Origin: Ganoderma boninense
Taxonomy: Eukaryota > Basidiomycota > Agaricomycetes > Polyporales > Polyporaceae
Assembly: GCA_002900995.3 (NCBI GenBank)
Contig: CM035311.1
Location: forward strand, 1,736,001 to 1,800,000
DNA: 64,000 nt
Reading direction: 5' to 3'
The position numbers and the translations under genes are program-made. Below the pieces are notes generated by a model. It was not told the origin of the DNA, did no database searches, and saw only the letters and a program-made list of their open reading frames with translations. Position 1 is the stretch's first letter. Every line of letters starts with the position of its first letter. Positions 56,380 through 59,300 of this stretch are shown one piece after another.

Positions 56380-59300
56380 CTACACCTTCATGAACGAGAA
56401 CAGGGTGCTCATCTGCACCCACCGGCGTCCGCTTTGGTCGAGATATTTGTTAACCACGCCGATCAGAGCATCACATGAGTTCCGCTGAAGACCTTGGAGA
56501 GACTCGAGATCTGGTCAGATGGAGAGCAGTGTTAGCCTGGCAAACCAATTCATGCCGTGAAGGATACGCACCCAGTTTTGTTGGTCCAGTGGCAACGCTG
56601 ACCGCTTTTGTGACGTCGAACAGGGATATGTAGTATCGCAGCTGGTTATAAAGTTGTGCGTCCGAATACTGCAGAACGATTCATCAGCGGCAAAGCCACG
56701 CAAAACCGAGTATGGAGCTCACCTCGAAAGCGACAGTTGCCTCGCACCCAGGGCGCAAGCACCTGCGACCGTACACGCCCATCATCCGTGTCCGGTTCCC
56801 GCAAGTCGTATCCTTGCAGACCGTCCAACCCTCGTAATACCTGGCGATGTGCTCCCGGATTTGGACCTCGAGCTGCGTTTGCACGCTCGCCATGCCCACG
56901 ATGGTATGACACTCCGGGCATATCAGCCCGCCGGCTTGAATATGGGATTTCTGCGGGAAACAAACGTGACGAGAATGAACACACCGGAACACGCAAGAGA
57001 TGATGGAGAATGTACCTGGCGGTCGGTGATGGGGGCGAAGGGGACAGTGTTCTGGCACGAACGGCAGCGGACGTTGAAGGGATCCGCGTCCTTGAACCGT
57101 TGCGAGTCGGACATGAGCGAGTCGAGCGTCCCGAAGGACCTATCCTCCGACTCCGTAGCGGTGACGGTACGGTAGCGGTTTGGATCCAAGCCCAGACACT
57201 CGGCCAACCGCGCACGGTCCGTGCCCTCTATGGGTTCGCACAGACGTTCAATGGGAGGAAGGACTTGCTGGGACAGGTAGTGCTCGTAGTCTGTCAAGTT
57301 TTTTAGCGAACGTGCTCGTTGTATCGCCCTACGTTGTTACTCACCGATCTTATACTTATCGCCCTCTCGTCGGATCTCTTCAGGCGACCTCGCCCGATCA
57401 GCTTGAGCGGTCTTCGCGGTCTCTCCACCCTCGCCCACACAGAAGATGTAGGGGATGACGTCTCCAGCGCGTGCGGTGCCTCCCTTGGCCTTGGTGCGCA
57501 AGGCAACCTGGACATGAGGCTGGCTCTTCGCATCAGGGTAGTCCTCAGGATTCTTGCCCAAGCGCTATAGACAGTCATGAGAAGACCGACGACACCGGAG
57601 AGAGAAGGACTAAGGCGCACCTTGTGGATGATGACAGTGCCTTGCATAATTGCGTGAACGCGCCGAAAAATGATATGATCGCCTACCAAATCAGGACGCC
57701 TGGGAAGCTTCAGATCGAGTTGGTGACCTGATGTGACATGTCTCTTGGATGGCATGACCTCCCGAAGCAGCTGAGCTGGTAAACTAGGAGGCCCGTTGAG
57801 AACCACTGAGCTCTCCAGGAAGTAGACAAGCGTGGGGGACAATGGGAACAGTCAGGCTGAAGTTAAGACCAGTAGAGGCGCACAGGCGGCGTTGGCGTTG
57901 CATGTGACCGTGATCCATCCGCATTTGGTAGGCGAGGTATAAGCGCCTGCTGGGGATTTTTCCGCGCGTTCACGCAATTATGCAAGGCACTGGAACTCCT
58001 CGAGCTTAATCTTGCCGGCACGGACCTGCTGCCCAATGATGGCGAGGTATTCGTGGATGTTCTCCACGACAGTTTCCGTAGCTTCACCGGAGAGAATCTG
58101 GTCCAAAACATAACTGCAGTACTTTTTTAGAGCGTATTCGACGATTTAGTTGCTTTTGCACTCACCCTGAAACGGTCTTGGAGAGCGCGCAGTATTCACG
58201 ACGTTTCATGTCCAAGCCCTTGACCTCCGTTGACGTGCGGGTGTTGTCTTCTACCTTGACAGCAGCGTATTTCTTCTTTTGCAAGAGCAAGAGACGCTTG
58301 AAAATGCCGTCAAGGTCGATCTCGAGCAACTTGTACCGGTCGTTGACGGCCTTCTTAAACTCGGCGGAGATTTTGAGGGCCTCAGACAGCTCCGTCACGT
58401 TCGAGTTGACGAAGACGGAGTCGGTATCACCATAAACGACCTGTAATCATGTCGGCAAAGGGCAAATCACGATAAAGGAACGCGGCAGACGCACATCGAG
58501 TTGCATACTCTCGGCGAGCTCCCTAGTATGAGTCAAGATCTCGCGACCCTTGAAAGTCGTCAAGGCAGCGAGAGGACGAGCGTAGAACCTCGAGTACTCG
58601 AAACCCAGACATCCGTACATACTGTTGGCCGTCAGCTTCAGAGCCATCTGCTTAATGTCCCACTACAACACAGCGGAATCAGAAACGACTTCAGGAAGTG
58701 TCGGTCGAGATCCGTACCTGGAGCAGCTGGCCTTGCGTGGCCTTCTTATCCTTCATCAGAGCTTTCACTGCCCGACGTCGACTGACGAGCGTTGCAATGA
58801 GACGAGGCAATACACCCTGACCGATCTGTGAACTTGGAGGCTCCGGGACCTTCTCTTCGCCCTCCTGCATAATGCATAGTATTCATATGAAAGCTCATCA
58901 GCGATGAGATGATGACCTCACCTCGTCCTCGACGGGCTCGACTGTCGTGAAGTCGATGTTATACTCCTGGATGATACTCGGGTACAGCGAGTTGAAGTCC
59001 ATGACGAGGATGTACTTGTCCCACAGGCCGCGCTTCGGGTCGAACACGAGACCACCCTTATACTTGTCCTTCTTGCCCTTGGTCGTCTTAGCGCCCTCGC
59101 CATCCTCGTGCTCCTCCTTCTCTGCCTTGATCGCTGTTGCCGCCTTCTTGCCGTACAGCTTGTCAGGGCAGATGTACTTGAGCCGATGAAACTCGTGCAG
59201 GAGAATGTATTCGTTCCGTTCAGCGCGACCACCGTTGAGAGTCTTGTTCCTGCGGGAAAAGAATTCAACACATGTATGCATATGGAGGGAGCGGATGGGT

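Follow-up and report, generated by a model that had tools for sequence, protein, structure and literature searches.

Part of the work of Gozashti et al. (2022, PMC9860276) describes introner families that carry both splice sites, one of which adds 12 nt to the message, and the fungal group named with introners in that part is the Pezizomycotina. Like the introners as described there, the element reported here is a DNA element with terminal inverted repeats and a target-site duplication that lies in an exon, but it differs from them in that its splicing is a proposal and in that no set of intron-located copies was found among the open reading frames (ORFs) abutting 21 of 66 copies. The family to which it belongs resembles IS630/Tc1-mariner MITEs in that its members are short and non-coding, have long terminal inverted repeats in common with a transposase-bearing relative of 3.4-3.5 kb, show a TA duplication (TA/TA flanks in 58 of 62 two-ended copies), and include many identical copies, whereas the copy described here is flanked by GA/GA on the forward strand (TC/TC in the gene direction) and carries private indels. 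Also comparable is the insertion of a transposon in one nucleus of a dikaryon, which would account for the interruption of an essential gene, the dikaryotic state of the present strain being assumed.

The locus lies in the window, a stretch of 64,000 nucleotides of Ganoderma boninense (assembly GCA_002900995.3, contig CM035311.1, positions 1,736,001 to 1,800,000 of the forward strand), in which a MITE interrupts the gene for the catalytic subunit of DNA polymerase alpha (Table 1). The present insertion was not named in the titles and abstract openings obtained from a literature search. Judging from the assembled sequence, we consider it rather probable that this is a recent null insertion, probably present in one haplotype or in some of the nuclei, and that its five indel clusters are assembly errors. 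The insertion shows that an active MITE burst has reached an essential gene.

Table 1 Features of the interrupted POL1 gene and of the large related elements (window positions, unless a locus handle is given)
Feature	Position	Strand	Remarks
POL1 (DNA polymerase alpha catalytic subunit), start to stop codon	56380..62059	-	18 exons, 17 introns of 50-65 nt
POL1 exon 13 with the inserted element	57621..58113	-	133 nt without the element and one target-site duplication
MITE copy	57635..57992	- (gene direction)	358 bp as assembled
Terminal inverted repeat, 5' end in gene direction	57956..57992		site of the proposed donor and of the TAA in frame
Terminal inverted repeat, 3' end in gene direction	57635..57671		
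Target-site duplication GA, first copy	57633..57634		
Target-site duplication GA, second copy	57993..57994		
Stretch that contains the five private indel clusters	57635..57780	-	3' part in gene direction
Proposed donor GT (CCA/GTGCCT)	57989..57990	-	matrix score 1.7
Proposed acceptor AG (GAAGCTTCCCAG/GCG)	57700..57701	-	matrix score 9.7
Large elements with MITE ends	L078:2590-3321 (C9), L026:2001-5410 (C2), L079:101-3611 (C11)		

The interrupted POL1 gene

The exon borders of POL1 were placed by hand using open frames and GT-AG dinucleotides. When the element and one copy of the target-site duplication (360 nt together) are left out, the 18 exons encode 1459 amino acids without any internal stop, and the codons around the site read EEFIIHK (residues 1137-1143 of the reconstructed protein), the element splitting exon 13 between F1139 and I1140. 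A piece of 216 residues around the site resembles the solved catalytic subunits of DNA polymerase alpha in the PDB, with a best E of 7.4e-55. The terminal arms of the element are 37 nt long and 97% complementary, and there is a further inner pair of 18 nt. The preliminary description, which had reported an inverted-repeat element of 358 bp with GA flanks inside an otherwise conserved POL1 exon and had recognised polymerase alpha in the codons around it, is borne out on all of these points.

As assembled, the inserted 360 nt keep the frame and contain two stops. Translation into the element after F1139 reads Q-C-L-A-stop, which makes the stop the fifth codon after TTC and not the fourth, as had been given before, and the truncation would cost residues 1140-1459, which amount to 22% of the protein and not to its C-terminal third. 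Because translation would halt so early in the element, a null allele is the most likely state of this POL1 copy. A search of the assembly (55.6 Mb, 74 contigs) with the DNA_pol_B profile gave 13 matches in four places, and no second copy or allele of POL1, which had been raised earlier as something that would speak against intron birth, was found among these matches. Presumably, this POL1 is the sole polymerase alpha, and the other places correspond to polymerases delta, zeta, and epsilon. If the strain were haploid and uniform, the essential POL1 would need to work somehow, and this counts against reading the copy as a null allele. The insertion is probably limited to part of the nuclei or to one haplotype, so that an uninterrupted allele would supply the function.

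The MITE family and its autonomous relatives

With at most three mismatches, the 28-base terminal repeat has 94 forward and 94 reverse matches genome-wide, which is far above chance, and its reversed control has no match genome-wide. The comparison set consisted of 62 distinct two-ended copies (60 of them short), against 94 terminal-repeat matches per strand, and three further copies with one recognisable end each (L019, L028, and L039) were also compared. The 60 short copies represent 21 distinct sequences, and 46 of these copies have one or more exact duplicates among the rest; these 46 copies are 382-384 bp long. Three elements of 3.4-3.5 kb (L026, L078, and L079) have the same ends as the MITE. 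In L078, an open stretch of 244 residues matches HTH_32 (1.1e-11) and DDE_3 (8.3e-9), both past the cut-off, and the ORF pieces of L026, which is broken there, match DDE_3 alone with E values of 0.05-0.09, below the cut-off. The MITE family was apparently mobilised by an IS630/Tc1-mariner transposon with these two domains, and it is a large and very young family that arose in a recent burst. A non-autonomous member of this burst entered exon 13 of POL1 at a non-canonical TC/GA dinucleotide.

Besides the window copy, flanks other than TA/TA are found in L005, L025, and L059, the last two being irregular. L005 (C8:2442687-2443078), with TG/TG flanks, represents a second non-TA insertion. In L044 and L021, the complement of the left end seems to have taken the place of the right end, as though one terminal repeat had been copied across to the other. 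A further element of 734 bp (L032:2001-2734) has terminal repeats as in the MITE.

Private differences of the window copy and indels in other copies

The nearest sibling of the window copy is L002, with which it is identical over the first 215 bp. Thereafter, the window copy departs from L002 in five clusters (8 to 1, 4 to 1, 1 to 0, 2 to 1, and 14 to 1 bases) without a single free-standing substitution, and these clusters, at element positions 216, 235, 263, 277, and 320, were unseen in the other aligned copies. Our cluster-splitting script counts them as seven indels and no substitutions against the nearest copy; such nearest-copy indel counts depend on the aligner, as MAFFT treats some events differently in joining or splitting them. 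Descent of the indels from a different copy was rejected, since a genomic source was found neither for the first two clusters, which together have no second place in the genome at up to three mismatches, nor for the 3' part, for which a genome search (40 of 99 candidates scored) gave no better match. Old age was rejected as their source because the first 215 bp match L002 throughout and both variants that distinguish L002 from L003 are shared.

Indels accompanied by few or no substitutions occur in nine copies besides that of the window, and in the autonomous copies as well. Compared with the nearest copy, L015, L047, L069, L070, and L016 have no substitutions and 6, 7, 4, 4, and 2 indels, respectively (L047 shows two small substitutions in the MAFFT alignment), L036 has one substitution and eight indels, and L049 has two substitutions and three indels. 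L019 (1752-2028) lacks 106 columns in 17 runs with no substitution, and L028 (2001-2284) lacks 108 columns in 24 runs with five substitutions. Between the autonomous L078 and L079, there are 21 gap runs and one substitution, and between L026 and L078, 87 gap runs and 20 substitutions. Other copies differ from their nearest copy without indels (two substitutions in L002, one in L025, and five in L072); L021 and L044 are separated by one indel and two substitutions, and L039 shows an ordinary mix of two insertions and three substitutions against L002. L018 is a diverged copy with 14 substitutions and 27 indels against its nearest copy, and with 88 substitutions in another alignment.

In the neutral decay of a sequence, substitutions outnumber indels. 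A sequence that has lost columns in patches and shows few substitutions or none may resemble a consensus built where many reads are without the insert or where support is thin. The 4.4 kb of POL1 coding sequence that flank the insert are free of frameshifts, so the indel noise is confined to the insert. From these comparisons, the five indel clusters of the window copy most likely arose as consensus errors where the assembly had too little support for the insert, and not through evolution, and the gaps of L019 and L028 are likely consensus errors too. However, most copies of the repeat are perfect, which is unexpected under a general failure of polishing and speaks against this explanation, as does the ordinary mix of L039.

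It is unlikely, in our view, that the indels are real and come from an unusual process by which certain members of the family acquire small deletions in clusters. Such a process would agree with the clean state of the POL1 flanks and of most copies, which makes the noise locus-specific, and with the presence of indels in both copies recognised in a conserved domain, that of POL1 and that in the F-box of L070. Nevertheless, the 17 separate deletion runs of L019, the like pattern in the 3.5-kb autonomous copies, and the fact that no event common to different copies was seen in the nearest-copy comparison all argue against it, and we know of no mechanism for clustered small deletions in certain transposon copies.

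Proposed splicing of the element from the POL1 message

The preliminary description proposed a newborn intron with an exonised tail, in which splicing from a GT inside the terminal repeat to an AG downstream would drop 291 nt and leave a working polymerase with 24 added residues. Both dinucleotides are present as described, and the removal of 291 nt is in frame and free of stops, but the added residues number 23 (69 nt). The reading frame leading to IIHK stays open over 77 codons, as far as the end of the exon, in the window copy and over 21 codons in L002. At this site, 42 GT-AG pairs of the window copy are in frame and open, and four of them use a donor within the element; this exceeds the other 40 copies placed at the same site, which have 8-16 such pairs in this orientation and 10-22 when reversed, in both cases with 0-2 from a donor within the element. 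The L002 sequence placed at the site gives no in-frame solution from such a donor, and the last of the five differences (net -13 bp) is both necessary and sufficient for one. Thus, the in-frame product hangs entirely on this net deletion and would vanish if the indel clusters are consensus errors in an under-supported insert, as the many copies compared suggest.

Selection on the indels was tested by random placement of the events in the whole element or in its 3' part, with the same or with random sizes. With the same five events, 77 open codons were obtained in 8% (whole element) and 24% (3' part) of the trials. One or more solutions with an element donor appeared in 17% and 35%, and at least four such solutions in 8% and 16%, respectively. 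With random sizes, the corresponding values were 4% and 5%, 15% and 33%, and 3% and 7%. Since random indels open the frame or give element-donor solutions in 3-35% of the trials, according to the measure, the region, and the sizes used, an open frame by itself is weak evidence of selection.

Splice sites were scored with a matrix trained on 17 introns, all from POL1 and with hand-set borders. The proposed donor (Table 1) scores slightly under the weakest native POL1 donor (2.7-9.8 in leave-one-out scoring), and the proposed acceptor is like the strong native ones (-2.7 to 11.5). Their sum of 11.5 ranks fifth among 304 pairs and first among those in frame and open, the four pairs that outscore it all breaking the frame in the window copy. 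As nine of the 17 native introns lie below 11.5 when scored by leave-one-out (6.3-20.2), the score alone is no argument against splicing. The idea that the proposed pair falls below all native introns was rejected, because it held only when each intron was scored by a matrix that included it (14.8-24.6). With L002 at the site, no in-frame pair of whatever kind goes above 3.6 (rank 36 of 326); for the 57700 acceptor, the highest-scoring pair reaches 9.9 there against 15.7 in the window copy. The private differences are favourable to the frame as well as to the acceptor context, which is predicted by intron birth and is also possible by chance.

An intact remainder of POL1, a stop-free pair that is the best of its kind, and an improved acceptor context would thus all suit a newborn intron. 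On the other side stand its reliance on the 13-bp net deletion, the like outcome in a share of the random indel placements, a donor slightly below the native range together with higher-scoring pairs that break the frame, a length over four times that of any native POL1 intron, and the landing of the 23 added residues in a segment that aligns gap-free with solved polymerase alpha chains. We therefore give a functional newborn intron a small chance, and a smaller one to the fuller account in which the MITE, very recently inserted into POL1, was caught as one of its spliceosomal introns, the clustered deletions having opened an exonised tail and made the insertion viable. If the splice model were true, intron birth would be seen in progress. 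The proposal of a newborn intron is left unsupported, as its in-frame product needs a deletion that resembles an assembly error, and we infer that an insertion in one nucleus or haplotype, which the preliminary description had named as its alternative, fits better. Indel-only differences in some assembled transposon copies can make or break reading frames, and claims of exonised transposons in this assembly need read support.

The insertion could also be homozygous and tolerated through other splicing, for example, from CAG/GTCCGT of the exon itself at 58025, which would give a shortened or altered polymerase. This site is the best donor in the exon ahead of the exon's own end (5.9), and the pair 58025-57708 is in frame and open. 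However, splicing from 58025 removes residues that align with solved polymerases, and the top-ranked 58025 pair, with the 57700 acceptor, shifts the frame. We regard this possibility as highly improbable.

Other insertions in or near coding sequence

Two insertions were recognised inside a conserved coding domain, and both bear indels. The second, besides that in POL1, is L070 (G000:C11:1756370-1757231), where an indel-bearing MITE copy with no substitutions sits within the F-box match of an open frame (E 6.9e-7, residues 67-110), the insertion site being at residue 82. Indels in both domain insertions would be expected were exonic insertions mostly confined to some of the nuclei, although two cases prove nothing. 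A Pfam search on 41 ORFs (minimum length 110 aa) that abut 21 of the 66 copies gave one DSPc and one marginal UPRTase match. The perfect copy L054 sits in an open frame that has, 66 residues further downstream, a match to dual-specificity phosphatase below the Pfam cut-off.
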